NCBI GenBank assembly: GCA_910574455.1
Contig: CAJSYZ010000011.1
Span: 1,054,001 to 1,118,000 of the forward strand
From: Trichaptum fuscoviolaceum
Lineage: Eukaryota > Basidiomycota > Agaricomycetes > Hymenochaetales > Trichaptaceae
Length of the DNA: 64,000 bases
Direction: 5' to 3'
The notes beneath the pieces are model-generated. The model made no database searches, was not told where the DNA came from, and saw nothing but the letters and a program-made list of their open reading frames with translations. Shown piece after piece: positions 35,412 through 63,285 of the stretch (its first letter is position 1; every line of letters starts with the position of its first letter). The position numbers and the translations under genes are program-made.

Positions 35412-37773
35412 CTACAGCGACCCGTCTCGCCAAGCAGAGGCAAAGACCCGGGCGGCGTGTTCCCGTGCGTCCGCTTTGTTCAAACCGTATCCTTCGCAAA
35501 GTTTGGCTTCTTCGTCTGTATAAGAGCAGAGGAAAGTATCATGTTAGCACACGTACATCTATTGGAGGCAAGTTCAGCAACTGACATCTGATTTCGCAAG
35601 TGAATGTGCGGTCGTGCTCGGGGCCATTTGGCGGACAGTCTACGAACCGCACTTGCTCAAGTAGCCCATGCTGGGCAAGATGGCTGCGCAGGATCGGAAG
35701 GTACTGCACGCACTGGGTAAGTAGTGCATAATCTACGCTTCTCGTTTCTAAGCATGGCTGTCAGGCCTACAAATGGAATAATGGTGACTTAGTTGACGCA
35801 CTCAATATCTGCACTGCGTCTCTCGCAGCCTGCTCTTCCGCTATTTTCTTTTGCCGGGACGAGGCCGATCCCAAATACTCTCCGCCCACTTTATCATTGT
35901 AAGTAAACTGTGACTTATACATTTGAAAACGTACCACTGCACGTAACTCTCCAGGCAAGTGGATTGATCGCATCGGGGCCGTCTGGGCTACAGCTGTAGC
36001 TAACCAATACCGGTTTCTTCGACTGATACACATTTAATAAACTTTTGTAGCCTAAAACGTCAAGATTGCAGGAGGAGTAAGAGAATGAGAGGACATGTGT
36101 TAAAGTATCTCTAGGTTAGTTCGCTTACCAGTACTGGCTTCCTGAAGCATCTGATCAACCATTGCAGATGGTGGTTTCGGTATATTAGGCCATAGCGAAG
36201 GAGCATGTGCCGGTGACTCAAAAGAGTGTGGAGACGAAAGGCTGCTTGATGAACTTAATTGACTTGTTAAAGAAGGATGCGGTGATATGACATCGTCTGA
36301 GAGCTCTGAAGTCGAAGCACCAGAATTCTCTGTGTACCATCCACTATCAACTCTGATTTAAGACCTATCAATGATTCACATACCTTCACTCAGAGTCACG
36401 AAGGACCGAGGTAGATCCGCGATTGACAGATTGGCCAGGTTTTCTGAAAGGTCTATACCGCTACCGTCGGGATGCTCAAGCTTATCAGCAGCCTTCTGTC
36501 TGTATATTGAAGGCAACCCGAGTTTACATGCTTAGCATGCATGATAGAGGGAGGATATAGGCAACTTACCGTATCAACGCTGCAATGGTATCCATCGTTG
36601 GTCTGACTGACGGATCTATGGTCCAGCAAAGGGCGCAAATCGAAAGTACTCGCTCCTTGTATGCATCGAAGTCCGGTCGATTTGCAGTCATAGAGGCAAC
36701 ATCTGGCAACTCGCAGTTGAGGAGCATCCTGATGACATCTACTTCACGCCTGCCAGTGTTTGAGTACGGTATTTGACCGGACCATAATTCCTTCATTTAC
36801 GATCCAGGTAAGCAGGAATTAGGATGAAAAGAGATCATTTAAAGACAACTACTCACAAGGAACGTCATTCCGAACGTCCAGACATCCCCTGGCAGCGTTG
36901 GCTTTTCTGGACCTTTAGAAGCGAAGAACTCGGGGGCTCTGTATTTGGTAGCACCACGGCCAACTATGCTCGACGCTGTTTGTCCTGGCGCCAAATTTTC
37001 AATTATCTTCGACAGCCCAAGGTCGCAGATCTTTGCTTGGCCAGAAGCGGAGACCAATATATTATCCTATTTATGATTAGCAACCAGAACGGGTCAGGGG
37101 AGAATGGACAGGAGCCTACTCCGCGGAGATCCCCATGCGCCGTGTTTTTCTGATGCATAAACAGCAGGCCATCTGCAATTCCAGAAACCTACATATCGAG
37201 ATTTCGTTCCGCCTCTTGTCAGAATACCAAAAGTAGAATACACAACTGAACAAAAGCTAACATGAGACACTCACAAACTTCAGTAATTCAACGTCTTTCG
37301 TGAATTTAAGATAGTGTCTGGCGGTGCCATTTTGCATCCATGGCGATACCAAGCACGGAAACTCGCGTTCAGATCGGTACAAAACACCTTCCAGTCGTAA
37401 AATATTAGGATGTCTAAGGTTTCTCCAAGAGTCAACCTCCCTCTTGATATACTGAATATCATTATATTTAGCTCTTAAGGAATTTATACGGTATACAATG
37501 GATCACCTTTTCTGCTTTTTGTTTGTCAATATCGTTGTAGCAGTTATACCTAAAGGCCTTGATCGCATAGAACACCGGAGGATCGGCACGCCGATCCCTG
37601 TACTTGTAGACGTCTGAAAACGAGCCGCCCGCTTGCGCCTTGGGGCTTGTCTCCTCCAATTCGTCGGAAAGGTCGGGGCAGAAGTAAGTAGCATCAATGG
37701 ACGGGCGAGAAGATACCCTAGAGCGAGTCTGTGCTTCAATCCGAGTGGGTTTCAAGGTCTGCGATTGAGACAT
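35412..37773 (-). CDS. Kinase-dsRBD fusion, gene A
   Basis: The kinase domain fills about residues 45-316. The glycine loop is AGGSFSDVYKY, the ATP-binding Lys lies in YAIKAF (about residue 72), and the helix-C Glu in IKREVDSWRNLRHPNIL. The catalytic loop is HGDLRGDNIL, the metal motif is DLG rather than DFG, and YRAPEF, GDVWTFGM and PTM follow. A Ser-rich linker ending NIPKPPSAMVDQML precedes two dsRBDs. The first has LLNVYQSKKP, WRVTCSVGGEYLGSASS and QKKIAEEQAARDAVQIL. The second has FTCEIRC, KADAREHAARVFASAW and the end WRDGSL. A 47-nt intron with an unusual AAAG acceptor must be removed in dsRBD1; B and C support the same junction. A promoter element lies 98 bp upstream of the start. The combination implies dsRNA-regulated protein phosphorylation (inference). 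Confidence 0.8.
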
Positions 37774-37871
37774 AGCGGGGATTGGACAGCATTGCTTCAC
37801 TACCTGGTATTTGTAGACTCCAGTCGCTAGGTATTCCTCACGGCAGACATGCGTACGGTCCGAGGTTCATG

Positions 37872-37886
37872 CACTGCAAGTGCGTG
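37872..37886. promoter_or_regulatory. Shared promoter element, gene A copy
   Basis: CACTGCAAGTGCGTG, 98 bp upstream of the gene A start. It differs at one base from the 15-bp element upstream of B and D. The core GCAAGTGC is near-palindromic, which suits a protein-binding site (inference). Confidence 0.45.
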
Positions 37887-38510
37887 TCAATCCGAATACG
37901 AGATTGAAACCTAAACAGGGTGGACTTCTGTTCTTCGGCGTGGAAATGAAAGCAGCCAATTCCTATGCCCACACCTTGAGATTACGGGCAAAAGAAAAGT
38001 AATAAATAGAAGGTTTTGTGACATTTTCTAATTTTTGAGTGCATCTAGGGAGAAGACAGATAGTAAACAGTGGTAGCAAGGGATGACTCGGAACTATGAA
38101 ATCGAACCCCTTGTGTTTTGAAAAAGAATTCGAGCTCCGCGGCAACTTGAACTTGAATTATTGAATTCCCACATCCTCAGGCTATGGAATCAACCTCCCG
38201 CTGATCGATTCGCAAACTACACAGCTCATAACATCGAGCAGTATAATCTAACACATTCATTTGTGAGGATTGTTCAAGGAACAGCGCTCAATGAGCATCA
38301 TCTCATATCTCTTTGCTGGTTAAGCGGAAACCTTATATGCACTGCCCATGTTCTCCACTTCTCCGATCACAGACTTGCTCCGATACTCACGCAATACATA
38401 TTACACACTGGCAGGATTCTGAAATGAATTCCCTCTTCCTATTCCTGTGTACCATCCAGTGAATCCTGGAACAAGCAGGATCACGATCGATGATCAGTTC
38501 TGTAATATTA

Positions 38511-39036: not shown

Positions 39037-39313
39037 TTAGTTCCTTTTCGGGAATATAGTAGAGTCCTGATTAAGATTTTGGGCTTTCTTGTGGCAGTTA
39101 ATCATCCACTAAATACGAATAATGAGAGTTTGAAAAGTCCTAAATTCCCGAGCTTTGTTTGGTGAACATTTGCAGAAGAGACATCGTAATGTTCGTTCTA
39201 TAAAATGAAAGCGGGGGAGTGCCAATACCATGCATAGAAGGTAAGAAAGGCATTCTATGTGCGACACGCGAGAGAGTAGTATACGAAACGGAAATAGAGA
39301 ACGATTTACATAC

Positions 39314-41651
39314 TTATAGTGAGCCGTCTCGCCAAGCAGTAGCGAAATTCTTCGCAGCTTGCTCCTGCGCGTCGCCCTTGTTCGCACCTTGGCCTTCACA
39401 GACTTGAATGCCGTCTTCTGAACGAAAACCAAAAGTCAAATACACCTATAACATAATTGACAGATGCAGTAACTTACTTATAACCTCACAGGTGAAGATA
39501 GGGCTATGGGCCAGGCCAGATGGCGGACGATCCTCGAAACGCACTTGATCAACCAGTCCAAACTGCATAAGATGTGCGCGCAAGATCGGAAGATATGGCA
39601 GACGCTGAGAAAAAGTATCTGGGTCTCTTTCCACTAAAAGTGCCTGTTAGACTCGATGGTGGACAGTACATATCAAATGGATATACCTAGTCTCTGCAAT
39701 GCCATTTTTGCGGACTGCTCTTCAGCGTCTTTTTTCTGCATGGACAAAGCCGAACCAAGCTCCTCTGAGCCGACTACATAGAAGTAAGCATCTGATGTAT
39801 GCGCATATGTTCATAGATTAATGTACAAAGACTCACTAGTACATGTTATTCTCCAAGTAGGGTTGTGTTCGAGACCTATTTTGGTATATTCGTACAAGAT
39901 GGGCTCCCGAAACTTTTGCTTATACAAATTCAACGCCTGCTTGAACACTGGTCGCACCGGGAGATACAAATGTGGCATGTAGAAAAGAAATAAGCTGATG
40001 GTCTCCAAATTTTCGGATATAGACATTCCTACCATTGCTTTCCATGTGAAGGAAATCATTGAATGACGGGGAGGGTGGTTTTGGGAGATCTAGCCAAGAC
40101 TCGAATGCTCCAGATGAGTTCCCAGGAGAAGGCAAAGAAGATTGCAGTGGCGCGGTGTCGACTAGTTGTCGGAAGTCATCGGTGAACCATCATTTCCTGT
40201 CAGTCTTCTTGGAACAGATGCATTTACTCAGTGATTTGCATACCTCCGTTCACGACAAACACAGGTGTTCTCTGAATAAGCACAGGTGAATCTGTTACTG
40301 AGAGATTGGCCAGATTCTCGGATATTTCTATGCCACTGTCGTGCTCTGACTGTTCACCCCTTTCGTATCTCGCTAGAGAGTCAACAATGCCCTTTTCGCT
40401 TGCCAGAGTACTTCAAAATAAATTACTGATTAAATGCAACGGACATATTCCGTCTATATAAACGCACCTCATTATAGCTTCGATTGTCCCCATCGAGGGC
40501 CTATTAACCGGATCCATAATCCAGCACAGGGAGCAAATGGAAAGCACTCTTTCCTTGAATACCATGAACTCAGGACGTTCCGCAGTCAAGCCACTATAGT
40601 CAAAAAGCTGTTGCTTAGAGAGCATGATGATGACTTCCGCATCTTTCTGCGATGAGAAAGGTATTTTGCCACACCATAATTCCTTTCCCATGTAATTTCC
40701 GGTAAGTATCGAAAGGAGTCTGAGAGGAAACGGAACGTGGTCACATACTAAGAAGGTCATCCCAAACATCCACACATCGCCTGCTGGTGTCGGCTTTCCA
40801 GAGCTATCCGAAGTGACGAATTCAGGTGCTCGATATCTCGCAGCGCAATAACCAAATACGCTTGAGACCGTTTGTCCTGCAGTCAGGTCCTCGATGATTT
40901 TGGAAAGTCCAAAGTCGCAGATCAAAGCTTGGCCAGAATTGGATACTAGGACATTGTCCTATCTTATATTTAGTATCAACGGGACCAAAAGCGTAGAAAT
41001 GATTGGAGACCTACCCCGCGAAGATCCCCATGAGCCACGGCCTTCTGGTGCATGAATGACAAGCCATTCGCAATGCCCGAGACCTTGCAGATAGGAGACT
41101 TGTCAACCGTCCCGAAATGGGACTGGAGAACGAAGTGGCAAATACATAAAGGCGAGGATGCACTCACAAATTTCAGCAAATCGACACCCTCTGTGGTCTT
41201 GATATACTGCCTCGCTGTCCCATTGTCCATCCACGGTGATACTAAGCATGGGAACCCACCCTCAAACCTGTATAGTATGCCTTCTAGCCGGAGGACGTTT
41301 GGATGCCGAAGGGTTCTCCAGGAATCAATTTCCCGCTTTATTCTCTAACAATTCTTAATTATTAGCACGGCAAGCAAGACAAGAGTGTTGCACTACCTTC
41401 TCAGCCTTCTCTTTGTTTAGTTCATTGCAATAATAATTTCTAAAAGACTTTATCGCATAGAACACGGGAGGGTTTGCGTGACGATCCTTATACTTGTATA
41501 CGTCCGAGAAAGCGCCGCAGCCTTGGATAACGGGGCTCGCCTCCTCTAAGTCGGTCGTTAGGTCCATACAGAAGTATGAGTTATCCATAGACGAGCGAGT
41601 AAACGCTCTCGGACGTATCTGTGTTGTACTAGGTGAGCGGCTGGAGGACAT
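39314..41651 (-). CDS. Kinase-dsRBD fusion, gene B
   Basis: ATG 41651 starts MSSSRSPSTTQIRPRAFTRS. The kinase has GCGAFSDVYKY, YAIKSF, an HGDLRG catalytic loop continuing to DNVLVS, DFGLSK, YRAPEF and GDVWMFGM, so all key residues are present. A Ser/Pro linker with LDLPKPPSPSFNDF precedes dsRBD1 (VFKQALNLYKQK, WRITCTIGSEELGSA, QKKDAEEQSAKMALQRL). The second dsRBD contains QRLPYLPILRAHLMQFGLVD, FTCEV, KGDAQEQAAKNFATAW and ends WRDGSL, like A and C. An 85-nt intron separates linker and dsRBD1. The gene is a close paralogue of A and C and the nearest gene downstream of C. Confidence 0.82.
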
Positions 41652-42843: not shown

Positions 42844-45800
42844 TTACAGTGAACCTTCGCGCCAAGCAACGGCGAAATTTCTCGCTGCTTGCTCCTGCGC
42901 GTCTCCTTTAGTTGATGCGATGCCTTCACAGACCTTGACACCATCTTCTATAAAAACGTTAAGCACATTTTCGACGCGCGTAAGTGACTGTTCAGCTTAC
43001 TTCTGACTTCACATGTGAAGGAGCGATTGTGGGGTGGACCACTTGGCGGGCAATCAATGAATTGCACTCGGTCAAGTAGCCCATGCTGCGTGAGATGGTT
43101 GCGCATAACCGGAAGAAACTGTAAGCACTGAGCGATCATAGTGAAATCCCTCGACTCTAAAATTGTTTATCAGGACAATTCTAAAGTGTGTGTTTATGAA
43201 AGACAGACTTAGTTTCTGTACTGCGTCCCTCGCAGACTGCTCTTCCGCAATTTTTTTCTGGTGAGAAGAGCCTGTGCCAAGTTCCTCCGGTCCAACTTAA
43301 CTGTGGTAAGTCACCTGTAGGACTAAGAGATCAAGAGGCTCACTCGTGCATGTTACCTTCCAGATAGTAGAGTTATCGGGACCGACTTGGCTAGCGTTAT
43401 ACTTGACTACCGCCGGTTTCTTGGTCTTGTAAACATTCAGCACGCCCTTGAAGACTGAATAAGTTAGTGGGATGAGGAAGGTGCAACCAAACGTGAATAA
43501 GCTGTTGAGGTGTATTATGCAGTTTCCTATTTCAGCTCATGTTTATGTAATCGTTTTGTATCAGACTGTTTCTCGCCCTTTTATTCGTCTCGAAACATGT
43601 CTGCCACCTCAGTTCTTTCTTACACGAACTGAGGTGAGTACCATTATTGTTCACATATCATTCTCTTATTGATTGTAGAGTAGCTTGATATTTTAGGTAC
43701 ATACTCTACAATACGAGTTCTTTCTTACACGAACTGAGCTTGATATTTTAGAACTCAGCAGGTTATGAGCCTTGCGGTCGCATAGCTCCCTGCCACTCTA
43801 GAAATTAAACCGTAATTAAGAATTCATGTCGCAAACCCCTCATCAAAACCAGTCGGTGCCACGTCCGATTGGAGACCCATTTCACACCGCAGACACGCAC
43901 GGTGACTTATTTGGAGCGTCTCCTTTGACAGCACTCTCTGATCTTCGTGCCACCGGACTTGCCACCCCTCCTCGACCAGCCACTCCTGCCAACCACTTGT
44001 CACCATTTGCAAGCTCGCCTAGGAATCCTTTTAGACCTATGGCACTCTTCCAGGAACCTTACGAGCCACGGGAGAAAATGCAAAGCCCGGTTGAACTCCA
44101 GATGCTCGAGGAGGATGGCTCTAATTTTATCAACTGGTTGTCGACTCTCCAAGTCTTTATGGAGTTTCAGCATGTCTTTGGCGTTGCTTCTGGTGCTGAA
44201 CCTATTCCGGAGGACCCAACTGCTAGAGCTAAATGGATAAATAAAGATCTTCTGGCTCGTGCTCAGTTCGCTCGCAATATTCCGATCTCTCTGTTCGGCC
44301 AACTCGATAAAACGAGCTCAGCTTCCATCTTAGCAGAATTAAAGTCACGGTTCTCCCAGCAACAAGACATGCGATATGCTATCACATGCAAACAATTGCG
44401 TGATAAACGCATCGGACCTACTGAGCGCATGAGTGCGCATATAGCAGAAATGCGCAAACTGCGCTCCGCATTCCTCAATTCAGGAGGCACACTAAGTCCC
44501 ATGGAGTGGCGCATGATTCTTGTCATGTCTCTAGCTCACGAATGGTCGCCCTATAAAGCTCAATTCGTCAACGTTCAAGATCCTGAACAGATTATCACCA
44601 CTCTGATTCTCGAGGAACTACGCATAGATGATGAACGCGGCATCAAGACTATTGCTGAAGTAAAAGAGACGGCACTTAAGTCGCAAGCCACAAGCTCCTC
44701 AAACTCCCGTTCCAGCTCTCGTTCCCGCTTTCGTTGCGAAAATTGCAACGTCCAAGGTCATACGAAAGATCGCTGTTATTATCCGGGAGGAGGAGGGACG
44801 CCACCAGCCACTTGGAAGCCACGTCAAGAGATTTTTGACAAGCTACAACGAGCGCAAGCACAAGTTCAAGCTCAACCGTCGGCTTCCATCACCAATACGA
44901 CTGCGCATACAGCCAGCGTCGCATCCCAGATTTACACGAGCGCATCAATATCAGAAGCATTCAAAGGCTCTACTCACTATGCCTTCGTTTCGACCGCCTC
45001 ATATTCTCCTTCGGAGGATATTTTCATTGTGGATTCTGGGGCGAGTTCCCATATGGTGTACGATGCATCAATCTTGCACGACTATATGCAGTTTCAAGCT
45101 CCGCAGCATATATCCACGGCAAAGGTCGGCGAGCCTATCTTGGCAATTGGACACGGATCCATCCGTGCTAAATTTGAATACCAAGGAGCAAATACTTCCG
45201 TCACCCTGATTAACGTGTTGCTCGTCCCTGATCTGGACGTCAATCTGCTATCTGTCAGTAAGCTCGTTGACGCGGGGATAAAGCTTAATTTCTCCACCGA
45301 TCACTGCACATTTACAGCAGGCGATCATACGTTCGCTTCCGCGCAAAAGGACGGCTCGCTTTACAAGGCAACGTTATTCGTATACGATCACGATCATTCG
45401 AGTCTAGTCAGCTCATCAATAACCGACATCACTCAAGATCTTACGCTGTGGCATAGACGTCTCGCCCATATCTCTGAGCGTCGTATCAAGTCGTTGGTTG
45501 ATAATGAAGCTGCCACTGGGATTCGGTTGAAAGGTCACAAGTCTGTCGGACTATGCGAACCATGCATTATGGGAAAACAACATGCGACACCCTCCCCATC
45601 AAGCAACTCATTTGCTAATGCTGCCTTCGACATCATTCACTCGGATATTCAATATTTCATCTCTGAGTCGTTCAGCCATGCCAAATATGCTCTGACTCTT
45701 GTCGATGAACATACTCGTTACACTTGGCTCTTCCCCATCAAGGAGAAGACTGGCGCTGCTGTTCTCGACATTTTTTCGACGTTTGACACAATGATTGAAA

Positions 45801-48800
45801 CTCAACACTCTAGCCGAATCAAGGCGCTTCACTCTGACAATGGGGGTGAATACACCAATTTGGCCTTAACTGAATATCTGAAGTCGCGTGGCATCGAGCA
45901 GAGGCTTATTGCTCCACACCGACATGAAATGAACGGTCTGGCCGAACGCATGAATCGTTCGATAGCTGATGGAGTACGGTCCATGCTTCAAGACGCGCAA
46001 CTTCCTCCTGTTTATTGGGCTCACGCTGCCACCTACTTCGTCGACATTAACAATCTAATGCCAAACGCTTCGTCCCCACCCGGCTCCACCCCTCACCAAA
46101 TGTTACACGGTCACAAACCGGACGTATCTCATCTGCGTGTGTTTGGGTGCCCGGCATACGTTCGAGTGCCACCGGATTTTCGTAAGAAGCTTGATCCCAA
46201 ATCACGGAAAGGGATTTTTGTCGGCATTTACAATGATGCCGCATACAAGATCATTATGCCCTCGCGCGAGATTATCAAATCCAAGGATGTCATATTCAAT
46301 GAACTACGCAGCTCTCAACCGCTCCCACCGACTATCGAACAACCTACCGAAGTCGTGCCACCCGCTGGTCTCGAACCTGTTTCAAACGAATCACTTGCTC
46401 AGCGCCGCCCTCGACGAGCAGATCACACCTCTTCCGACCGACGTGAGAGCATCCGTCAAGAGTCAGCCTACGAGTATATGGACAACCCCATGAGGGGGAG
46501 CGTTGCCAATGCTCGGCGCATAGTGTCTGGGCACATCGTGCCACTCACGATGACCGAGGCACTCAAAGGCCCAGACGCCGCTAAGTGGCAAGAAGCCGGC
46601 CTCTATGAGCTTGGCATGCTGAAGAAGCATGACGTATGGGACGAGGTTCCTCGTCCGATTGACACTCATGTCATTAAGGGCAAATGGGTTTTCAACATAA
46701 AGCAAGACGGCGACTCACTTGTGTTCCGCGCTTGATGGGTTGCTCGAGGAGACTCTCAATTGCCTGATGAGTTCGGTGAACTCCACGCGAACACTGGTGA
46801 TTTCAACATTGCACGCACTTTCTTCGCAATATGCGCAGCCGAAGGAGCTCAGCTATGTACCATTGATATCAAATCAGCGTACTTACATAGTCCTCTAGAC
46901 CTCAGCAAGCCCATCTATGTCGAATACCCGACAGGGTTCTCTCCCTCGACTCCAGAGGCCGTCTGCGAGCTCAAGAAGGCGCTTTACGGTCTTAGACAAG
47001 GTGCTCGAGCCTGGCAAGATGAGTTCTCGTCGACTCTTGGCCAAGCCGGCTACAAGCCACTCGTATCTGCGCCATCTGCATACAGACAGGCAGACGCTCT
47101 TGGTGAATGCCTGATTCACACACATGTTGATGATTGTAATGCCATCTGCTTCACTCCATCTAGCGCGTCAATCTCCCAAGTACAACGTTTCCAATCGGAC
47201 ATTGGGAAACACTATGATTTCTCCAAGAAGGATCTGTCAACTACCGCTCGGGTTCTAGGCTGGGATCTTACTTTCGACCCTCTTACGAGCACAATTAAAA
47301 TCTCGGTGGCAACTAAGATCGAGAACATTGCTCTAAAGTATGGCCTGCAAGATTCTAACCCTATTCAAACTCCAATGGCTGAGAACGCTCTCGCGACCTT
47401 CCACGATGATGATTCCAAACCCTTTGACGATCCTCCCTTCCCCTATGCTCAAGCTGTTGGCGAACTTCTATGGCTTGCTATGAACGCTCGACCTGACATT
47501 GCTTTCGCGGTCATAAGTCTCACTCGATTCCTCAAAGCACCAAAATCCTCACACTGGTCTGCAGTCAAGCGCGTCATACGTTACCTTCTTGGTTCTAAGT
47601 CCCTTGCTCTCACTTATTCCAAGTCCGGCTCTTCGTCTACACGACCCGTGGGTTTCTGTGATTCCGATTGGGCCAGAGACCCACAAGATCGCAAGTCGAT
47701 CTCCGGTTTTGTCTTCATCTTTGCCGGAGCCGCTATCACTTGGAAAGTAAAACGGCAAACTGTTGTAGCTCTCTCAACTGCTGAAGCCGAATATCTGGCT
47801 GCGTCTCTTGCGACTCGAGAAGCAATATGGTTCCGTCAATTTTTTTCAGAAATTAATCGACCTTACGAACATCCTCTGCAATTATTTGGTGACAATCAAG
47901 CCGCGATTAAAATGAGCAGCAACCCTGTTTATCAAAACAAAACTAAACACATCGATATTGCTGCTCATCATCTTCGCGACGAATGCCACTCGAACCGCGT
48001 ATCCCTTACGCATATACCTGGCACTTCAAACCCGGCCGACATTTTTACTAAGCCTCTCCCTCCCTCCCTTCATTCCAAATGTGTTTCTTTTCTTGGTCTC
48101 ACTTGAATCATTTTTCCCCACATTTCCTATACATTACGGTCATTACATCTCACATTTTCTATTCTTTTCAAACTCTTCGAACACTCGCTGAGGGGGAGTG
48201 TTGAGGTGTATTATGCAGTTTCCTATTTCAGCTCATGTTTATGTAATCGTTTTGTATCAGACTGTTTCTCGCCCTTTTATTCGTCTCGAAACATGTCTGC
48301 CACCTCAGTTCTTTCTTACACGAACTGAGGTGAGTACCATTATTGTTCACATATCATTCTCTTATTGATTGTAGAGTAGCTTGATATTTTAGGTACATAC
48401 TCTACAATACGAGTTCTTTCTTACACGAACTGAGCTTGATATTTTAGAACTCAGCATAAGCTATAAAGGAGACAAGAAGTCTAATCGCATACCGGTACTG
48501 TCCTCTTGCAGCATTGCATTCACCGATGGGGATGGCGGTTTCGGAATATTTAGCCATGACAAGAGAGACTTTGGTCGAATCAAAGGTGAATTTAGTGTAG
48601 CTAGGCTGCTCGACGAATATGACGAGCCGAATGGCGAAGGCGAAGAAGGATGAGATGAGAGGGCGTCGTCCAGCTGAGTGGAAGTAGGAGAGCCGTTGTT
48701 ACCTTCGAACCATCATCATCTGTAACTGGGAGCACTCGCAGATATGTAAAAATTCACATACCTCCGTTCGCGACAAAAGTGGAGGTTCTTGGCATAAGCA

Positions 48801-50136
48801 GAGGTGAATCCGAGATCGATAGATTGCTTATACTATCTGGCTGCTCAAGTCCGCCATCGACAACTTGATCAGCCTCCGTGGGGCTGGACAGAGAGCCGTC
48901 CGCCCTCTCCTCACTTGCTAGAAGCCTTAGTACCATCGTGTTCATTATTAATGCTGGTTTGTGGAAGAACTGATTCAACTTACCTCATTAAAGCTGCAAT
49001 CGTAACCATCGAAGGTCTATTTGTTGGATCTATGACCCAACATAGTGTGCATACCGAATGCACCCTTTCTTTGCATGCCTTGAAATTAAGCCGTTTAGCA
49101 TCAATGTTGCTGAAGTCGGGCAATTCGCATTTGGACAGCATCATCATCACTTCTGGATCTCCCTTACCCAGGAAGGGAATTTGACCAGACCATAGTTCCT
49201 TTAGCATGTAATGTCAGCGGAAGGTGTTAAACAGGGTCACATAATAGACACATACCAGGAATGTCATTCCAAACATCCACACATCTCCTGGTAGCGTCGG
49301 TTTCTCCTGTACGTCGTCCAGAGCATAAAATTCTGGAGCCCGGTATCTGTAAGCAGTATGACCGACTGTACTTGACGCTACTTGTCCCGCAGTCAAGTTT
49401 TCTATGATTTTAGATAGACCAAAGTCGCAGATCAATGCTTGACCTGAGTCAGAGACGAGTATGTTATCCTATCGTGTGAATTAGGTAAAATAAGTGGAGC
49501 GTTGTAATCTTCATGGTGCTCACCCCACGAATATCCCCATGCGTTATGCCCTTTTGGTGCATATACGAAAGTCCATCCGATATACCCGAAACCTTCGGCG
49601 GGTTAGAGAATGATCAATGGACAGCAGATCTTTGACAATGGTACGAGCTTACGAAGTTAATAAGCTGGATTTCATTTGCGTCCTCGCAATGGCGTTTTGC
49701 GGTGCCCTTCTGCATCCAAAGAGAAACCAAGCATGGGAATTGGCTGTCTGGCCGGTACAATATGCCTTCTAGTCGCAGGACATTGGAATGCCTAAGGCTG
49801 GCCCAAGATCGAATTTCCCTTTTGATTCGCTGACAAAAAACACAATCAACATAGCTAGCAAAACAAATGTATATGGTGCGGTACCCTTTCAGTCTGTTTC
49901 TCGCTCAGTTTGAAGCTTGTGTGATACCTAAATTCCTTCACCGCATAGTAGACGGGAGGATCGGCGTGTTGATCCTTATATTTGTAAATGTTCGAGAAAG
50001 ATCCGCCACCTAGTGCGCTTGTTACAGCTTCCTCTAGCTCAGCAGTCAGGTCCACACAGGAGTATGAGAGATCTATAGATGAGCGAGAAATTGCCCCTGG
50101 GCGAGACTGTATAGGAGAGCCACTGATTTGCGACAT
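42844..50136 (-). CDS. Kinase-dsRBD fusion, gene C, with retrotransposon in an intron
   Basis: ATG 50136 starts MSQISGSPIQSRPG. The kinase has GGGSFSNIYKY, YAVKEF, HGDIRGDNILVS, DFGLSK, YRAPEF and GDVWMFGM. A linker ends LNIPKPPSPSVNAML. The two dsRBDs lie on the far side of the copia element: VFKGVLNVYKTKKP, WKVTCTIGPEELGTGSS, QKKIAEEQSARDAVQKL, and then FLPVMRNHLTQHGLLDRVQF, FTCEVRS, KGDAQEQAARNFAVAW, ending WREGSL. The intron between linker and dsRBD1 now spans 43455-48492; without the element it would be about 79 nt. Both exon flanks and splice sites look intact, so the gene could still work if the long intron is spliced. Whether it does is unknown. Confidence 0.72.
43503..43760 (+). repeat. 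Copia 5' LTR
   Basis: 258 bp, TGTTGAGG...ACTCAGCA. It contains two copies of an internal GTTCTTTCTTACACGAACTG stretch. Confidence 0.95.
43761..43771 (+). other. Primer-binding site, half initiator-tRNA type
   Basis: GGTTATGAGCC directly follows the 5' LTR. It is complementary to the anticodon stem-loop region of initiator tRNA-Met (GGCTCATAACC), the internal priming site used by copia-type elements with a half-tRNA primer (family knowledge). Confidence 0.7.
43826..48106 (+). pseudogene. Copia gag-pol polyprotein with one in-frame stop
   Basis: A single frame from ATG 43826 encodes a gag part with a CCHC knuckle (CENCNVQGHTKDRC, about residue 303). The protease follows with DSGASSH (about 403), then the integrase with an HHCC zinc motif (HRRLAH...CEPC) and LHSDNGGEY of the DDE core. 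The reverse transcriptase has TIDIKSAYLHSPL and HVDD in place of the usual YVDD, and the RNase H has STAEAEYLAA and GDNQAAIKM. A TGA at 46733-46735, in the reverse transcriptase just before WVARGD, is the only break; the frame continues unchanged to 48106. Stop readthrough is possible in principle, but a nonsense mutation is the simpler reading. Confidence 0.9.
48190..48198 (+). other. Polypurine tract
   Basis: GAGGGGGAG lies directly upstream of the 3' LTR, the expected place for second-strand priming. Confidence 0.8.
48199..48456 (+). repeat. Copia 3' LTR
   Basis: 258 bp, the same sequence as the 5' LTR by direct reading; followed by the TAAGC duplication. Confidence 0.95.
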
Positions 50137-51024: not shown

Positions 51025-53498
51025 TTCATGACTGATGTCTTTGGGTGATGCCAATCCATAGAGAAGCCGCATTGCGAGCTGCGTTCTCCTTTGCGCGTTG
51101 CTTGCTATTGCCATTCCCCTGCGCGATAATCGTGCCGCCCACTGACGTCATTCCACGCATAAATAAGAGAAATTCACAAAAAGCAAACATACGAACAGAT
51201 GAAATTGCAAGTCCAGGCGTTTCCGGGTCCGTCTACTACTCTGTCGACCCATTGTATTCGATCCCAGAGATTGATCTTCTTCAGATGATTCTCAAATCGA
51301 GAGTAATAACTCAGGGCACTAGCTACCCCTTGTGGATCCTCAGAATCTGAAGGTGCAGCTGATTAGAAAATAAAGTTCCATCGTAATTTAACTCACAAAG
51401 TCGCATGACTGCTTGCTTGGCTGCATTCCATTCTGCATCCGCACAATTCTTTCCAGAGCCACGCCCATACTCAATTTCCCTGACTTGTCACAGCATTAGC
51501 AAATTGTTTTAGCTACTCGATCGGAAGAACAAGTATATATACCCCTGCAGATTGAGGTGAATGGTATGGCCTTGGAGGTTTCGAATTTCACCACGTTCTT
51601 ATCCCGACTGAAATAATTGAAAAGTATAGTTTTGTGTGCTTAAAGATTAAGTTAGTACAATATTTTTAGGTGGAATATAAAGCGTACCTGTAGATGTGTC
51701 ATCCAGCATTGACTCTGTAGTCGGAGGAAGAGGCGGTGGAGCAGTCAACAAGGAAGTAAGCCCCAATGCATCTGCATTCGACTCGCTTCCGAGTCCGTCA
51801 CTGCTTGTCCAGAGATTTTCGAAGGTAAGGGGAGCCAATTCTGTTTGTGGCGATGGATCGTGATTACTTCGTGAAGGAGTAATTGTCGGGGACGAGGTAT
51901 GGCAAGATATAGGTTCCACTTCTGAATCAGCTAGACTGGTGGTGGCTGGATTACGTCCGACATCTGAGTCTGGACTCAAGTGTATAGAATCTGCTTTGCC
52001 GAATCCCGTAGAACTTCCAGCCGGACTTTGACATTGGTATGTCGGGATATATCCCTCGTACACCGGGGATGAGCGTCCCTCTTCCACATCTCCACCAACT
52101 CTTCTTGAAGCATAAAGTCAGCCTGGAGAGTCTGCTAGTTGGTGGATACGTACTGATTACCAGTGGCGGTTGAGTTCTCTGGAATATTGTTGCTCACAGA
52201 CAGCGGCTGATTGACATACTCTTCTCCGGCAGTATCATAGGGTATGTTTTCCCCCATTAGAACTCTATAGTGTGTCGTTCTTTGTCAAGTAAAAGATGAG
52301 ATAACATATTCAAGAGCAAACACACCTCAACAAAGTTGCAATCGTTTCCATGGATGGTCTGATTATTGGATTGATAGTCCAACACAGAGAACAAATAGAA
52401 AGTACCCTTTCTTTTAACAACCTGAATTCAGAACGTTTGGCAGTTATTCCGTTGACATCCGGTAGCTTTTGGTTGAAAAGCATGAGGATCACTTCTGCCT
52501 CTGAGAATGATGAGAAGGGTATCAGACCAGACCATAACTCCTTCGGCAAGTGATTTTGGACAAGCATAATACATCGAAGAGGCAATCGAAAAGGACGGAC
52601 GTACAAGAAATGTCATCCCAAACATCCATACGTCGCCTGACGGTGTTGGTTTGTCAAGACTATGAGTGAAGAATTCGGGTGCACAATATCTAGCAGCCCC
52701 ATAACCAGTCACACTAGATGCTACTCGACCTGAGGTCAAGCTTTCAACGAGCTTTGAAATTCCGAAGTCACAGATCACCGCATTGCCAGAGTCGGTGACC
52801 AATATGTTATCCTATTTTAAAATCATCATTTTGAAACCGAAAACCTACACTTGATTAGTACCTACCCCTTTTATATCTCCGTGGGCTATGCCCTTCTGAT
52901 GCATGAAAAGCAAACCATCCGAAATGCCAGAGACCTTGATGAATTGTGTGATTCTCTGCTGCAACAAAAAGGATAAAAGGAAGAACGGCTCACGAATTTC
53001 AATAAGTTTACACCATTTACATTTGCACAGTACTTTACAGCCGTCCCATTATGCATCCACGGTGAAACCAAGCATGGAAAACGACTCGTATCAACCCCGG
53101 ACTGGTACAGAATCCCTTCTAGACGAAGGATGTTAGGATGCCTGAGGCTTCCCCAAGATTCAATCTCCCGTTTTATCCGCTAAGGAACACACGTTTTAGT
53201 AATAAATAAAAAAGCAAAAGCAACTGAGTGAAGTCACCTTTTCGGTCTTCTCTCTGTCAAGATTGTAGCAATGGTGATATCTGAAAGACTTTATTGCATA
53301 ATACACGCAAGGGTTGGCGTGTCGGTCCTGGTACTTGTACACGTCGGAAAATGCACCACCGCCTACAGCTGTGTGGCTTGTCTCCTCCAGCTCAGTCGTT
53401 AGATCCACGCAGGAGTATGCTGCGTCGATAGATGGACGTGAAGTTGCCTTAGTAGAGCGCATTTCAGACTGCGGAGAAGATCCATTTGACTGCGACAT
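51025..53498 (-). CDS. Kinase-dsRBD fusion, gene D (mosaic type)
   Basis: ATG 53498 begins MSQSNGSSPQSEMRSTKATS. The kinase closely follows A-C: GGGAFSDVYKY, YAIKSF, HGDIKGDNILVT, DFGISK, YCAPEF and GDVWMFGM. The long acidic linker instead ends TAPPPLPPTTESML, like gene E. The first dsRBD ends EYGRGSGKNCADAEWNAAKQ and the second has WTCNFI, then GGTIIAQGNGNSKQRAKENA and ARNAASLW; both resemble gene E and not A-C. The stop is TGA at 51025. I read this as a recombinant of the two subfamilies. Linker introns near 52100-52310 are roughly placed. Confidence 0.75.
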
Positions 53499-54253: not shown

Positions 54254-56496
54254 CTATTGCATAGCGTCAATCCAGAGCAAAGCAGCATTCCGAGAAGCGT
54301 GCTCCTTCGCATGCCGCTTATCAGGGCCTATTCCGTGCGCAAAAAGAGTTTCGTCCACTACCATACAGATGAGCATCTGACATGTATGAACTTTAAAGTA
54401 CATGTACGCACCGATGAACTTGCACGTCCAGACAGGGACGTGAGCTGATCCATTATCTTCATTGACCCACTTAACTCGATGGAAGAGGTGGTGGTTGGAC
54501 AGGTGGATTTCGAATCGAGGGTAATATTGCAAAACATCTTCAACACCGTCTGGGTCGTCGGCATCTGATTAACATGTCAGTCAGCATCTAACTTGAAATG
54601 CAGCTCAAAGGCTACTCACAAAGTCGTATCAATGTTTCCCTTGCAGCGTTCTCCTCTGCATCTCGCAGCTTCGACCCATAGCCTTTCCCGTACTCAACTC
54701 CCTCAACTATCGCACATTATCAGCCAATTTTTTCTGAAATATCTGATCAAGTCAAAAATGACCATACTTGTGCAACTCGTAGTAAAAGCATGTTGAAGAT
54801 TTCCGCTTAGTCGCACGAACTTTAGTGCGTTGAACTTCCCTTGACGACTGACATACGTGAGAAGGGAAGTCTTGTGCGCTTGGAGAATGGGATTAAAGCC
54901 CAGCCTTCTTGAATAAAAGACAACATACAAATGCTTTTATCTTTCAGCATTGCTTCCGTAGTCGGGGGTATAGGGGGCGGTGCTGCAAACAAGGGAATAA
55001 GACCTCGTACCGCGTCTTCTGCGTCTATGCTATTGGAATGACTCGTGCCGCTGCTTGACCCTTCTGAATCGATACTTAATTCTGGCATAGAATTCACCAA
55101 GTCTTCGGAAATGTCACTGGTGCACAAGGACGTTAGGGACTCCGTCTTCACTATAACTCGCCCGTTTTGATGAATGGTTTGGGGGGATGATGCAGAAGAG
55201 AATGGATTCAATGTGCCTTTTACACTCATCGGACTGGCACTGTTAGGAGCCGGGCTCTGCTCAGAACTCGCCGAGAAGGGTTCTTCGTCCGCTTCAATGT
55301 AGGCTCTACGTGTCAGAGGCATGTTAATGTAGCAAATAAGTGGACAGTGCGCGACTCACTCAATAACGGAACGTAGAATGTCTATCCCCGGCCTGGTACT
55401 TGGACCCTTAACCCACGCGAGAACGCACAACGTTTTTACACGCTCTTTCTCCTTCAAAAAATCCATTCGCTTCGGACATGGGAACCTCGGGAGCTTGCCC
55501 TTTGATATTACCACCGGCACTTGCTCCTTCCTGATGTCAAAGTATGGTGGTCGACCAGACCAGAGTTCCTGAAAGAAGCCAAGAGTGAATGCCTTGATCC
55601 TACAATATAGGTTATGACGCACCAGACAAGACATCCCAAAACTCCATACATCGCCGGCTTTCGTAGGAGAGCGTGGAATATGGTTACTACTTTCTTCATC
55701 ACCAAATTCCAGATACTCTATAGCTGTCCATCTACTAGGACCACCCCAATCGCTGGTGCCCGTTGTAATGTCGATTCCGTCTACCATCTTTGACAAACCG
55801 AAGTCTCCGATGCAAGCCTGCCCGTCGTCAGTGACGAAGATGTTATCCTAAAGAACGTCAGTCAGTACACATCAGATATGAGACAGAGCACGAACTCCAC
55901 GAATATCACCGTGAGCGATGTTGTTAGCATGCAGATGAGAGATCCCATTTGCAATTCCCAGAATCTGGAAAAATATCAGTTCGATTTAGCGGCGTGAAGA
56001 ATAGTAATGCTCTACTCACAAATGGCATTAGCCTTGTGTTTGAATCCCTCTTTAAGTAACTTGTTGCAGTCTTGTTTTTCATCCAAGGCGAAACCAAGCA
56101 TGGTAATGGCAGTCCGGGTCGGTTGAAAATGCCCAGGAGCTTCAAGATATTCGGATGATCCAGTCCAAGCCAAGCTCTTATTTCGCGTTTCATTTTCTAC
56201 AAGACGCGTTGGTTTAGACTGCCTCAACGAGAAGTCAGCCATCACCTTACCTTGACCGTTTCTTCAACAAGAACTTCAAATCCGTCATAGAAGCGGAGTG
56301 ATTTCACTGCGACAAGCATAGGTTCTGACTCGGGCTGGTCTCGGAAGCAATATTTGTAGATGTCCGAAAAACCGCCACACGCAGACGGATGAGAACCAAC
56401 TTCCTCCAATAATCCGGTAAGGTCTTCCACGCCATATTCCGAATCAGAAGAGGATTGAGACAATCTTCGCGCGGCGGGAATGCCAGAGACAGACAT
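54254..56496 (-). CDS. Kinase-dsRBD fusion, gene E
   Basis: ATG 56496 begins MSVSGIPAARRLSQSSSDSE. The kinase has ACGGFSDIYKY, VAVKSL, MKREIRAWLGLDHPNIL, HGDIRGDNIFVT, DFGLSK and GDVWSFGM. In place of APE it has AIE (SRWTAIEYLEF). A 57-nt intron joins the kinase end (LRSVIEA) to an acidic Ser-rich linker ending AAPPPIPPTTEAML. The dsRBDs carry VEGVEYGKGYGSKLRDAEEN, AARETLIRL, and later VWTCKFI, DETLFAHGIGPDKRHAKEHA and SRNAALLW. The stop is a TAG at 54254. It is more divergent from A-C in the kinase and shares its C-terminal half with D. Confidence 0.78.
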
Positions 56497-57378: not shown

Positions 57379-58279
57379 TCATGCCGGAAGCAATTTCAAT
57401 GCAGCATTGCGCGCAGCCTGTTCTTCTGATTCACTCTTAGAGCTTCCAGTTCCTTCCGCCAGATGCTTGCCATCACCTGAGGAAATTGTTAATAACGAGC
57501 TTCATAGAGATTGAATTACGAACAGAGGACTATGCAATTCCAAGTCAGATCGTGGCACGGACCCTCCTTGGAGAAGTTCCATTGAAAACGATGGGTTAAG
57601 CTATTGTTTTGCAGGTATGACTTGAACCGAGGTAGATATGCCAATGTTCTCATCATTGCATCAGGATCCTCTTTGACTAGTCGTTTCATGGAGCGTGTAT
57701 CATTGATTAGTATATGTCTCATTTTGAGGATTCAACGTGGTCTTGGCTCACAGAGTTTGTCTAGTGCTTGGGACGCCGCTTGTTCCTTTGCAACCTTGGT
57801 TTTTGCATTTATTCCCCTCCCATAGATCTTCCCAGAAACTTCGGATGCGACAGTATTAGTAACGTCCCTAACATCAGCTTGGTCGGGACTGAGAGCTGAC
57901 GTACTGATGCAGGTACATGTCCATGTAGTTAAATGTGGTTCACCAGCGCTCGCGGTCTGCATCTCCATTACCTCCAGCCTCTGAGTGCGTTGAAGGAAAT
58001 TTACCAACGTCGTCATCTTGGCTGAATACAAATCAGAATGAAGACACATGCTGCTTCATATAATTATGCATACTCACAGAGCTCGGGGTTCCAGGGAGTT
58101 TTGGGTGAAGGTGGCATTGGAAGCGAAGGTACAACAGCCTGTATTGGCTTGGGATCTTTCCGTGCCAGGGGACGCGCAGTTGTCTCCCGTCCAGTGATCG
58201 TAGGCGCGTAGGACCATTCGCTTACGGTATCAGTAGTACCATTGATAGTGCTCGCATCGTCGGTTACGTTCGAGGGCAT
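57379..58279 (-). CDS. Tandem dsRBD protein without kinase, gene F
   Basis: ATG 58279 (MPSNVTDDASTINGTTDTVS) starts a protein of roughly 250 residues. After a polar N-terminus and a SLPMPPSPKTPWNPEL linker, dsRBD1 has MTTLVNFLQRTQRLEVME, TWTCTCIS, SGKIYGRGINAKTKVAKEQA and SQALDKL. The second has PRFKSYLQNNSLTHRFQWNF, LTWNCIV, then GDGKHLAEGTGSSKSESEEQ and AARNAALKLLPA, with TGA at 57379. The Pro-rich linker just before dsRBD1 matches the place of the linker in the kinase-bearing members, so F may be a truncated relative that lost the kinase. A role as dsRNA-binding partner or competitor is inference. Confidence 0.72.
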
Positions 58280-58831: not shown

Positions 58832-59899
58832 TCATCTACCCCAGTTCGCTGCCACGTTTCTTGCTGCAGATTCCTCAGAGGCCTTCCTAGTAGCCGCTTC
58901 TCCTACACCAAGGGCGATTCCGCCTCCTTCCAAACCAACACTGTGAGCAGGACGAAGAAATGGCAAAACAAGTGTCGAATGCTCACGGAACACGGTGCAC
59001 ACCCATGTCGGGTTGCAGTCTGGGCCTTTTTGGACGGAGGTCCATTCCAGTTGGTCGATCAGCCTTTCTTCGAACAAAAACTCTTTGAAAACAGACAAGT
59101 ACGAAAACGACTGCAGCATCACAGTAGGGTTCTCTTCAACTAGAAAATATCATAATGTTTGGAATTGAGGTTATGCTTGCTATGTAGGGTAAGCAACTCA
59201 CACAGTTTGTCTAGAGCTTGCAGTGCGGCGTCTTCGTGGACTTTCTTACGGTTAGTCCCTTGCACATTTCCGTATTCCTTCCCGTCAACTCGTTGCATGA
59301 CGATATAACATCAGCGTTCAGAACTATAAGAGGAATGCATCTACTCACTGACAAAAGTCATTGAGAAGATGTGCTGGCTCGCCAGCTCCGAGCTTGAGGA
59401 AGGTCGGAAGGTTGTCCGTACTTCGGCTGCCTTCTTCTGGCTAGCCAAAAAGTTATTCAGTGCTAATGCCTTCGCTACACAGAGCTGGTCATTTCAGTCT
59501 GCGGAGCTGCAGTGTAATGTACTCTTACATTTAGCATATGCCCATGGCCTATCTAATGAGGGCGGGGTGGGAAGGACCTTCGCTTCCGGTTGCATCATCT
59601 CCTTGTTGCGTTGCAAGAGATGTTTCGCCAAGTTCCATTGATTGATAATTTCAACGGCGCTGCTTTTCACAGGCGGGGCTATGCGTGAATAATCTGGGTT
59701 GTCTGTACTTCCGTGTTCCCGATGTTTAAAGTGAGCATTTCGCTCAGAATCGGTTGCAAATCCAGATTCTACCGCCCCAAAATACGCGCTGGAACCCTGT
59801 CAACAACCATTAGGTTATTTAAGACGGCAAAGTATCAAGAATTTGACTAACATAGCTGAGCGGTTCCCGTTGGCAAGAAATGAGATGATCATCGACCAT
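58832..59899 (-). CDS. Tandem dsRBD protein without kinase, gene G
   Basis: ATG 59899 (MVDDHLISCQREPLSY) is joined through a 55-nt intron to GSSAYFGAVESGFATDSERN. A linker with VLPTPPSLDRPWAYAK follows, in the same place as the PPSPKTPW of gene F. The first dsRBD has LNNFLASQKKAAEVRTTF, FSMTFVIDGKEYGNVQGTNR, KKVHEDAALQALDKL; the second has FKEFLFEERLIDQLEWTSVQ, TWVCTV, and GGIALGVGEAATRKASEESA with ARNVAANWGR before TGA 58832. No kinase is present. The N-terminal part is unlike the other members and unrecognised. Confidence 0.68.
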
Positions 59900-60638: not shown

Positions 60639-62732
60639 CTAGAGCTTAGCTAGTGCAGCTTGACGAGCTTCTACTTTTGTTAGCGCACTGCCTTCAACAA
60701 CTCCTTCAGCACCTGTTCGTGGATCGACTGTGAATTCAAGTACAGAAAACGGCGATTCAAGAAACACTGACCTCTCGTAACATATGTCCATGTAGGTTGA
60801 TGATACGCTCCACTACTAATGAAATGCTCGTCGCGCTCAGCTAAACGCGATTCTGATATTAGGCGTACAAGGGTACTAGGCAACTGCTACTTACGGAATT
60901 CCTTAAGCGCTTGCTTCGCGGCTCTGTTCTCGGCATCGACCTTCTTCTTACCCATACCTTTCCCTATTTCTACCCCCTTAACTGGAAAAGACTGTGTCAG
61001 TCTGATGCATTTTGATTAGGGCATCTTGTACATACAGGTTATAGTGGTGTACCAAGTTGGAGCATGTGCTGGACCGTCTGACGTGTTTGTGATGTTGAGT
61101 AAGTGGAGTTTCGACTCTCTTGTGATATGGTTAAGGAGTTCAGTTTTGTCAGCTGCACGACGAAAAGCTCAATGATCAATCCGATGAGATTGCAGTATGA
61201 ATGCGTACATGAAGCGAACGAAGATGGAAACCTTGTTTCCACCGGGACTGACAACTCGTGTACAGCAGCAGAGTTTAACGATGTACGGAGCTGGGATGCA
61301 GTAGAAGTCAGACCAGCATATCTTGCACGATTGACTTCCATAGAAACTGGTGAATGTGCGAGCGAGATACCGCCAAGCACTGATGTATTTGATATCGAGG
61401 CTGAAGTCGGTATTGAAATCCTCATATCCGACACGGCCCGTGCTGTTTCTTCCTGCCCGTGTGCCTGCCTTTCAAACTCTTGTATCCTCTCGTGTTTTCT
61501 TGATGATTCCGCAACAACGTTTCCCCTCAGCGCTAGAATTGAGCTTTCTTGTAGGCATCTGTGGAAATTGAGGGTACATGAAATGCTTATGCAACTTGAT
61601 CAAGCGAGAAGCAGCCTTTACCTCAAGTCGATACACACTTTTTCTATGGGCGGTCTTTCTGTAGGTTGGATTTTCCAGCATCGGCGACAAAGCTCAAGCA
61701 GTCCTTCAGCATAATGCGACCACTGATAATGTAAAGGCTCTAACCCAGAGAACTGAGGAAGAACTCCCCTGCCGATTTTAATTATGACGTTCGGCTCCCA
61801 GTCATCTTCATCGTATGGTTGCTGCCCTGTAAAGAGTTCCTGGTTTGGAAACGTAAACAATGATGTTGTGCTTATTGGTGAACCAAAGTGAACAAACACG
61901 CACCATAATCGTCATTCCAAATGACCAGACATCCGATGCTGAGCTTCTGCGGGGACAAGCGCTACCGTTCCCGTTCTTGAGGAATTCATGTGCCGTCCAT
62001 CGGACATTCTCTCTCGCACTAGCCGACATCGTGACTCCGAGCTCTGTGTGATCATTTGCAGATACCGATAATCCAAAGTCGGCCAAAAGAGGCACTTTCT
62101 CGTTAGAAACCAGAATATTTTCCTGTAATTCTTAGAGTTCTCCCGAGCGGACTCATTATGGTTGACTCACAGCTCTTATATCCCCGTGAACGAACCCGTT
62201 ATTGTGTAGGTAGACAATGCCATCAGCAATACCCCGTAGCTAACATATACTGTCAGCTCGGGAATGAAATTTTATCTATATACTGTACCATCGATAGGAG
62301 GTTAGAGCTTGAACACTCAGGTTTACGAAGGTAGTCCAGTATTTTTCCGTTCTCCTGAAATGGGGAGACGAAACTTGGAACATCGTCGCTTAGATGGCAC
62401 ATTCCAACCAGACGGAGAATATTCCCGTGTTTCAGTTGACTCCATATAGCATACTCGTGAGCAACATCCTAACAGAAAGGAAAGTTCATGAGCGAATCTT
62501 TTTGAACAAGACATCACAGAACACGTTTAAATACCTGGAATGTTGTTTTTGATTTATGGCTCGTTTTGATTGCGACCTTGAGATTGCTTATGTGGGCGAG
62601 GAATACGGATGAGAACGTCCCTTCTGCTAAGGGTGTCTGGCTTACGTCCTGTATGTACGGTTTGAGGTCACACATAGGAAGAGATGGCTCTGTCTGTTTT
62701 TCTGATTCGACGTGGGCATTCATCCCCGCCAT
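60639..62732 (-). CDS. Kinase-dsRBD fusion, gene H (divergent)
   Basis: I prefer ATG 62732 (MAGMNAHVESEKQTEPSLPM); an in-frame ATG at 62798 is possible. The kinase has AEGTFSSVFLAH, VAIKTS, HEYAIWSQLKHGNILRL, VHGDIRAENILVS, DFGLSV, RWTAHEFL and SDVWSFGM. A helical linker (LQESSILALRGNVVAES...) replaces the Pro-rich linkers. The first dsRBD has LLNHITRESKLHLLNI, TWYTTIT, KGVEIGKGMGKKKVDAENRA and AKQALKEF; the second has TWTYVTRGAEGVVEGSALTK and VEARQAALAKL, with TAG at 60639. It is the most divergent member but keeps the same domain order, so the fusion predates the local A-D expansion (inference). Confidence 0.75.
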
Positions 62733-63285
62733 AATCACAGAAAGGAGACAGAACTTGAAGGTGGGACGAGGTACTTTCGCATGATAGATTCTTATCATGG
62801 AAGGAGGCCCTCGCCGAATGGAGACCTTCCCGCCCTCTTCGCCGACACAATGATCGTCGTCATTCTCATACGTTCATCACAAGTCTTAATTCGGGAAAAA
62901 AGATGGATGTTGCTCAGCTGAACGTAATGTCCTACTTGCAACCGAGGCGGATCCAACATCAATCCTCAATCCCTACTTATAGCTGCAGCAGAATGAAGCA
63001 AGATGTTGAAGAATGGAAATGAAGCAGAATCTGCGTTTCATGCCATGACTCGAGTGTTGAATTGTTGAAGATCGACAGACGGTGGGCCCGTAAATTTTGT
63101 AACAATTACGTATAAAGTACTATGTACTCGTATGCGGGATGCACACCTGCAAAGCGCGTCAGAAGTCTGGTATGAAACAGGTTTTGAAAGGAGTGTACCT
63201 TTGATATACTTAACACATATGCTAAGCGAATCAATTAGGAAGAAGGTGGTAATTGCTATTGCGACAACGTTACCAATGAACAATA
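62733..63285. other. Intergenic, gene H promoter
   Basis: This lies between the gene H start and the 3' end of the TPR gene, both on the minus strand. No gene is seen. Confidence 0.45.

Follow-up and report, generated by a model that had tools for sequence, protein, structure and literature searches.

Discussion of fungal defence against double-stranded RNA (dsRNA) viruses centres mainly on RNA silencing. The kinase PKR (EIF2AK2), in which tandem dsRNA-binding domains (dsRBDs) and a kinase are joined in one protein, is described as vertebrate-specific (PMC12394161). A fungi-specific kinase lineage near the tyrosine kinases, FslK, has been set apart by criteria that include the absence of the motif AARN; it is expanded in Agaricomycetes, developmental roles have been suggested for it, and an extra domain of any kind is reported in only 16 of its 241 members, while the words 'dsRNA' and 'double-stranded' do not occur in the main text of the paper (PMC3937382). 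Many TKL kinases have also been reported in Laccaria bicolor, in a paper whose main text has neither 'dsRNA' nor 'dsrm' (PMC2838846). Here we describe eight genes of one family, all on the minus strand, at 35412-62732 of a 64,000-nucleotide stretch (the window) of the genome of Trichaptum fuscoviolaceum (59 Mb, 12 contigs; assembly GCA_910574455.1, contig CAJSYZ010000011.1, in our numbering C11:1054001-1118000). Six of the eight genes encode an N-terminal kinase, a Ser/Pro-rich linker and C-terminal dsRBDs, and two, G2 and G3, encode the linker and dsRBDs only. We give a probability of about 0.55 to the reading that tandem duplication has here produced a family of dsRNA-responsive kinases whose origin, by convergence, is independent of that of PKR. 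No description of a fungal kinase-dsRBD protein was found in the literature searched, where subscription papers were mostly missing, and this agrees with the first-pass annotation of this DNA, which knew of no such fungal system.

Kinase and dsRBD parts of the array genes

Numbering follows transcription, with G1 at 62.7 kb and G8 at 35.4 kb, and positions are those of the window.

G1: 60639..62732, minus strand; most divergent kinase, linker and dsRBD1, with a degenerate dsRBD2 (PK_Tyr_Ser-Thr E 2.1e-46; dsrm 41.4 bits, one stretch)
G2: 58832..59899, minus strand; Pro-rich linker, dsRBD1 and dsRBD2, no kinase (dsrm 34.2 bits, one stretch)
G3: 57379..58279, minus strand; Pro-rich linker and two dsRBDs, no kinase (dsrm 70.6 bits, two stretches)
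G4: 54254..56496, minus strand; kinase, linker and two dsRBDs, 585 amino acids (PK_Tyr_Ser-Thr E 5.6e-33; dsrm 45.8 bits)
G5: 51026..53498, minus strand; kinase, linker and two dsRBDs, 638 amino acids in the model, mosaic (kinase E 1e-33; dsrm 50.2 bits)
G6, 5' half: 48493..50136, minus strand; kinase and linker (Pkinase E 9.1e-37)
Copia long terminal repeat (LTR) retrotransposon: 43503..48456, plus strand; 4,954 bases, in the G6 intron before dsRBD1, antisense to the gene
G6, 3' half: 42844..43454, minus strand; two dsRBDs, exon start 43454 set by eye (dsrm 69.0 bits)
G7: 39314..41651, minus strand; kinase, linker and two dsRBDs, 571 amino acids (Pkinase E 5.4e-37; dsrm 65.0 bits)
G8: 35412..37773, minus strand; kinase, linker and two dsRBDs, 576 amino acids, the closest copy to the JGI protein P0001 (kinase E 8e-35; dsrm 53.0 bits)

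The first-pass annotation had placed here, at 35412..62798, a same-strand row of eight genes with tandem dsRBDs, six of them fused to an N-terminal kinase with its catalytic residues. The row itself held, with its end moved to 62732, and the dsrm (PF00035) profile search that had been suggested gave matches of about 34-71 bits in all eight spliced models, above the curated Pfam cut-off of 23 bits. Tandem dsRBDs could be called in six of the eight, as Pfam finds two stretches in each of G3-G8 but a single one in both G1 and G2 (at lenient limits of E <= 1, or <= 0.1 for G2 and G4); the second domain of G2 is seen by alignment only, and that of G1 is without helix 1, which by eye its frame cannot take in without crossing a stop. 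G1 would then have one sound dsRBD and the second may be dead. Kinase and dsRBD parts are present in all six genes for which a fusion had been claimed, but G6 is cut by the Copia element.

A profile of 15 dsRBDs, with G1 dsRBD2 left out, has as its best solved match the PKR dsRBD pair (1qu6, E 7e-20), followed by ADAR, TRBP and Staufen, and Loquacious and DGCR8 are also among the matches. The motifs by which dsRBDs contact RNA are the GPxH loop and KKxAK at helix 2. When the same 15 domains were compared at these places, the GxxH loop was found to be kept in eight of them, and in at least one dsRBD of six of the eight genes; three basic helix-2 places are present in G3 dsRBD1, G4 dsRBD2 and G5 dsRBD2, and fewer in most other dsRBDs. 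The AlphaFold model of G4 dsRBD2 predicts, at moderate confidence only, the expected alpha-beta-beta-beta-alpha order of elements (helix 14-23, strands 30-35, 44-49 and 72-79, helix 82-101); the query had kept an in-frame intron, and two extra strands fall in the intron residues.

PK_Tyr_Ser-Thr matches were obtained for all six kinases, and the best Pfam kinase E values are about 1e-33 to 2e-46. The ATP-binding Lys, helix-C Glu, HGD Asp, Asn, DFG Asp and APE-type Glu are kept in 6/6 by alignment, as the first-pass annotation had it for the catalytic residues; G8 reads DLG at the DFG position, and G1, whose Lys block was misaligned by MAFFT, itself reads VAIK. The catalytic loops are HGD(L/I)(R/K)GDN or HGDIRAEN throughout, and with all catalytic residues kept the kinases would appear to be active. 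The top solved relatives of the G8 and G4 kinases are Eph, EGFR, RIPK1, Src-family kinases, B-Raf, Mer, MAP3K5 and others, and PKR, GCN2, PERK and HRI were not named among the best 60 of 2,396 solved matches of G8 or the best 60 of 213 of G4. By this ranking and the HGD-type catalytic loop, an identity as eIF2alpha kinases was rejected and the kinases are taken to be TK/TKL-like; the resemblance to TKL-type kinases that had been read from the letters alone was upheld. The named relatives in the protein database are from Mycena, Botryobasidium, Pleurotus, Piloderma and Exidia, all of which we take to be Agaricomycetes; together with the short introns of the genome they indicate an agaricomycete source.

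Evidence that both parts belong to one protein comes from P0001, a protein of 350 amino acids from a 1,140-base JGI contig that was found with the family profile (E 1.5e-103) and is the only entry with a dsrm among the 107 matches listed, the domain lists being incomplete for two. It shares 73% identity with G8 (258/352 columns) over a stretch that takes in the last third of the kinase and everything after it up to WRDGSL, the end common to both. The identity is highest in dsRBD2 (70/80), then in the kinase C-lobe (64/80), dsRBD1 (49/70) and the linker (70/102), and it is by its identity to G8 that the kinase part was recognised, being too short for Pfam at E <= 0.01. Seven G8 introns fall within this stretch, through which P0001 is uninterrupted, gap-free at six of the seven junctions and with a two-residue insertion beside the seventh. 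Because the seven introns are missing, P0001 is probably a spliced cDNA and hence one transcript, and the kinase-dsRBD fusion is real and very probably carried on one transcript. No other protein of this architecture was found in the database searches; a C-terminal profile run against 5.8 billion proteins found only P0001 (8,000 candidates were scored and remote relatives may be missed), and a protein search with the G4 dsRBD end gave 0 of 519 candidates at E <= 1e-3.

Introns, a mosaic copy and the genomic setting

For training, the gene finder was given 20 stretches of 10 kb from this genome, whose introns are short (median 56 nt, GTRNGT-like donors), and the models were refined with paralog hints and by hand. 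Seven genes yielded models with an unbroken frame between ATG and stop, and G6 came out in two halves. Ab initio calling, with no hints given, had found G4 as one gene of ten exons that holds both kinase and dsRBDs, and this model was kept; two in-frame introns were taken out of G7 by hand, in whose model the junction before dsRBD1 is uncertain; and the G2 and G3 models each retain one in-frame intron, which was removed by hand in the peptides for the dsRBD alignment and, in G3, for the Pfam scan as well. The introns 41084-41167 and 40683-40748 of G7 and 55569-55622 and 54358-54411 of G4 have lengths divisible by three and contain no stop, so that their retention would preserve the frame and add residues to the kinase or to dsRBD2.

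Five kinase introns stand at identical places, with phases 0, 0, 0, 0, 2, in the models of G1, G4, G6, G7 and G8, and the G5 kinase has four of the five places and all five phases in common with them, its second intron being some residues off the common place in the model, where the common splice is open by eye. A phase-1 intron lies ahead of dsRBD1 in G1 to G5 and G8 (in G7 it is phase 0 and shifted), and phase-1 introns are found within dsRBD1, between the dsRBDs and within dsRBD2 in G1, G4, G5, G7 and G8; the dsRBD half of G6 was left out of this count, and G2 and G3 show part of the pattern because of the in-frame intron left in each model. Each dsRBD is thus an exon pair between phase-1 introns, a shape that is suited to exon shuffling. 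One linker proline is invariant in all eight aligned rows, G2 and G3 included. These common features suggest a single fusion that was followed by tandem duplication, after which the kinase would have been lost in G2 and G3, unless these two descend from the dsRBD donor. That the array is more than chance is confirmed by dsrm matches above the cut-off in all eight genes, by the common intron phases and by a spliced-looking homolog from another source.

G5 is a mosaic in which a G6-G8-type kinase is joined to G4-type dsRBDs, through one exchange of halves between copies. Kinase identity is 61-65% among G5-G8, 41-43% to G4 and 30-33% to G1, but the dsRBD half of G5 is 46% identical to that of G4 and only 26-31% to those of G6-G8, which are 50-59% identical to one another, and in a sliding comparison the switch of affinity falls inside the linker. 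The kinase tree groups G5-G8 (support 94/96, with no branch at the starred support level) whereas the dsRBD tree groups G4 with G5 (95/96). In approximately unbiased (AU) tests a G4+G5 clade is incompatible with the kinase data (p-AU 0.037), and so is a G5+G6+G7+G8+P0001 clade with the dsRBD data (p-AU 0.0097), values that are optimistic as the tested clades were named after the first trees were seen; the dsRBD test was run without G2, a long branch, and the kinase test with three of the six outgroup kinases of the tree. The ratio of nonsynonymous to synonymous change (dN/dS) is 0.12 (G8-G5) and 0.14 (G8-G6) in the kinase, with synonymous sites near saturation, and 0.34 (G8-G7), 0.88 (G8-G5) and 0.94 (G8-G4) in dsRBD1, with high dS throughout; these ratios are rough, since dS is infinite in 8 of 18 comparisons and at least 1.26 in the remainder.

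The Copia element has the end of the G6 linker exon (48493) on one side and, on the other, the first exon of dsRBD1, whose start was set by eye at 43454. Its LTRs (43503-43760 and 48199-48456) are identical at 258/258 positions with TG...CA ends, and it is flanked by the 5-base target duplication TAAGC at 43498-43502 and 48457-48461; the identical LTRs and the duplication mark the insertion as recent. The main reading frame of the element is broken by a stop. A hinted model at 42844-44006 that joined the G6 dsRBD exons to Copia sequence was discarded as spurious.

The array adjoins what we take, from its sequence, to be a beta-tubulin gene (32961-34783) and is bordered on the other side by a TPR gene from 63286 onwards; a further housekeeping neighbour at 24637-31461 is presumably a carbamoyl-phosphate synthase/aspartate carbamoyltransferase-like gene of the URA2 type. 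No family member was matched at E <= 1e-2 in 40 kb of flanks or elsewhere in the window. Among kinase pieces of the genome that lie outside the array, the best score is that of C1:3317799 (39% identity) and the next named is at C8:3117215 (31%), short pieces reaching 47%. In the three outside kinase gene models examined, some of which are truncated where the locus ends, the kinase is accompanied by RasGEF, by another kinase domain or by no further domain, and dsrm is absent from all three. A wider spread of the family in the genome was not borne out by these searches. A six-frame dsrm search of the genome finds only one of the eight array genes (G1) because introns split the domains, and further dsRBD genes could be missed in the same way. 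Its other places are a DEAD/DEAH helicase gene (C2), a gene with a sub-cut-off RNase III match (C3) and two small C11 loci. The first of these, G000:C2:2782634-2785828, has two dsRBD stretches followed by the helicase domain and is presumably DHX9/MLE-like. The C11 loci, close to 1.667 Mb and 1.685 Mb, are short dsRBD exons some 550-570 kb away from the array; no kinase was seen in the gene calls there, the 1.685 Mb locus giving no gene call. Five loci with Piwi matches, six with RdRP and two with paired RNase III domains were found, so that dsRNA would be a managed molecule in this fungus, and the role in RNA silencing that was also considered in the first-pass annotation would have a genomic setting.

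Possible function and rival explanations

A probable course of events in a dsRNA-responsive kinase family is that the dsRBDs would bind dsRNA and that two or more kinase molecules, brought together on a single RNA, would activate one another in trans, with a linker that lets the kinase swing free, upon which the activated kinase would phosphorylate a substrate that is not expected to be eIF2alpha. The likeliest role would be to raise an alarm when foreign or aberrant dsRNA appears, such as that of mycoviruses, transposons or silencing intermediates, and the kinase-less copies could act as modulators by competing for RNA or by heterodimerising. A more elaborate version, in which a convergent innate dsRNA-sensing array swaps kinase and sensor halves in the manner of immune receptor arrays, keeps the kinase-less copies as modulators and guards against mycovirus and transposon dsRNA alongside silencing, is put forward tentatively.

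Several observations weigh against these proposals. Beyond G5 the sensor halves are only somewhat more diverged than the kinases (sensor/kinase identity is 50/65% for G8-G7, 59/61 for G8-G6, 53/62 for G7-G6 and 29/43 for G8-G4), which is why the version with swapped halves is held with less confidence. The contact residues are mixed, with strict GPxH in only four of the 15 dsRBDs, the GxxH loop in neither dsRBD of G5 and G2, and Glu in place of the third basic residue of helix 2 in dsRBD1 of G8, G7 and G6; affinities should therefore differ among copies, and some dsRBDs may not bind. The values of 0.88 and 0.94 for dsRBD1 may reflect relaxed constraint, although at such high dS relaxed and diversifying change are indistinguishable. 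The AlphaFold models are weak (mean pLDDT, the predicted local distance difference test score, 48.9 for P0001 and 62.5 for G4 dsRBD2), P0001 alone was found among outside homologs to have both parts, and with G6 split by a transposon and G1 dsRBD2 degenerate, part of the array looks to be decaying.

How else, then, could the array be explained? It is possible, though on balance doubtful, that the dsRBDs target the kinase to an RNA-silencing or other RNA-protein complex, where it would regulate the machinery (Dicer, Argonaute or a helicase) and not be switched by dsRNA. The RNA-silencing genes of this genome would suit such a role, as would the fact that TRBP, Loquacious and DGCR8, which are solved matches of the profile, use their dsRBDs as adaptors, but the tandem arrangement and the swap of a sensor half are somewhat more in keeping with a sensor gene than with a housekeeping regulator. 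We consider it unlikely that the dsRBDs are now dimerisation or protein-binding modules without RNA binding, in what would be ordinary lineage-specific mushroom kinases of the FslK type. The lost contact residues, the dN/dS of up to 0.94 in dsRBD1 between some copies and the expansion of FslK kinases in Agaricomycetes, with their suggested developmental roles (PMC3937382), would agree with this, but the GxxH loop has been kept in at least one dsRBD of six genes, and no part is better conserved between G8 and P0001 than dsRBD2.

Even less credit is given to a decaying array of lineage-specific duplicates with no present function, to which the recent transposon in G6, the degenerate dsRBD2 of G1 and the two copies without kinase would point; against it, an open frame runs from ATG to stop in each of the remaining seven gene models, those kinase dN/dS values that could be estimated are low, and P0001, a conserved homolog of separate origin, has the look of a cDNA. 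Finally, kinase and dsRBD parts could be separate neighbouring genes and the fusion an artefact of modelling, as unhinted gene calling left G8, G7 and G6 partial and missed G5. This is highly improbable, because G4 was called as one fused gene ab initio, the linker exons are open, the intron phases match across copies and P0001 joins both parts in one uninterrupted frame; on P0001 and the common introns, separate neighbouring genes were rejected. The family of dsRNA-responsive kinases thus remains the reading that we prefer. It had been proposed in the first-pass annotation as independently evolved, and the real fusion, the TK/TKL-like kinase and the order reversed relative to PKR stand behind that proposal, whereas the response to dsRNA is a part that we infer.

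Comparison with known systems

Animal adaptors of the PACT, TRBP and Loquacious type resemble G2 and G3, the dsRBD-only neighbours of the dsRBD kinases, but by intron phases and Pro-rich linker these two belong to the array family and not with the adaptors. The mushroom kinase-RasGEF and tandem-kinase proteins, which supply the best-scoring outside kinase pieces (C1:3317799 and C8:3117215), differ in carrying RasGEF and a second kinase domain, with no dsrm in the three models examined. To FslK the array kinases are alike in their PK_Tyr_Ser-Thr match and in the lack of the TK-diagnostic AARN in the catalytic loop, both in 6/6, and by eye five of the six have Pro at position four of the subdomain-X motif, where G7 has Phe. 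By these motifs the kinases would fit the FslK description.

The likeness to PKR lies in the tandem dsRBDs and kinase of one protein and in the PKR dsRBD pair being the best solved match of the profile. PKR, however, has its dsRBDs at the N-terminus and the array genes have them at the C-terminus; Pfam coordinates put the kinase ahead of the dsRBDs in each of the five fused genes that are unbroken, and gene order does so for G6, so that the reversed order claimed for all six fusions was borne out. The PKR kinase also belongs to the eIF2alpha-kinase family, whereas those of the array are TK/TKL-like with an HGD loop. If the preferred reading is true, a dsRBD kinase has been made from a different kinase stock and a switch from dsRNA to phosphorylation evolved more than once, and the question whether fungi own a kinase-based dsRNA alarm could be put to the test in this small protein family. 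A PKR-like layout that was apparently built independently suggests an unstudied fungal way of sensing dsRNA, in which the array proteins would work most like PKR and yet not be members of the PKR family.

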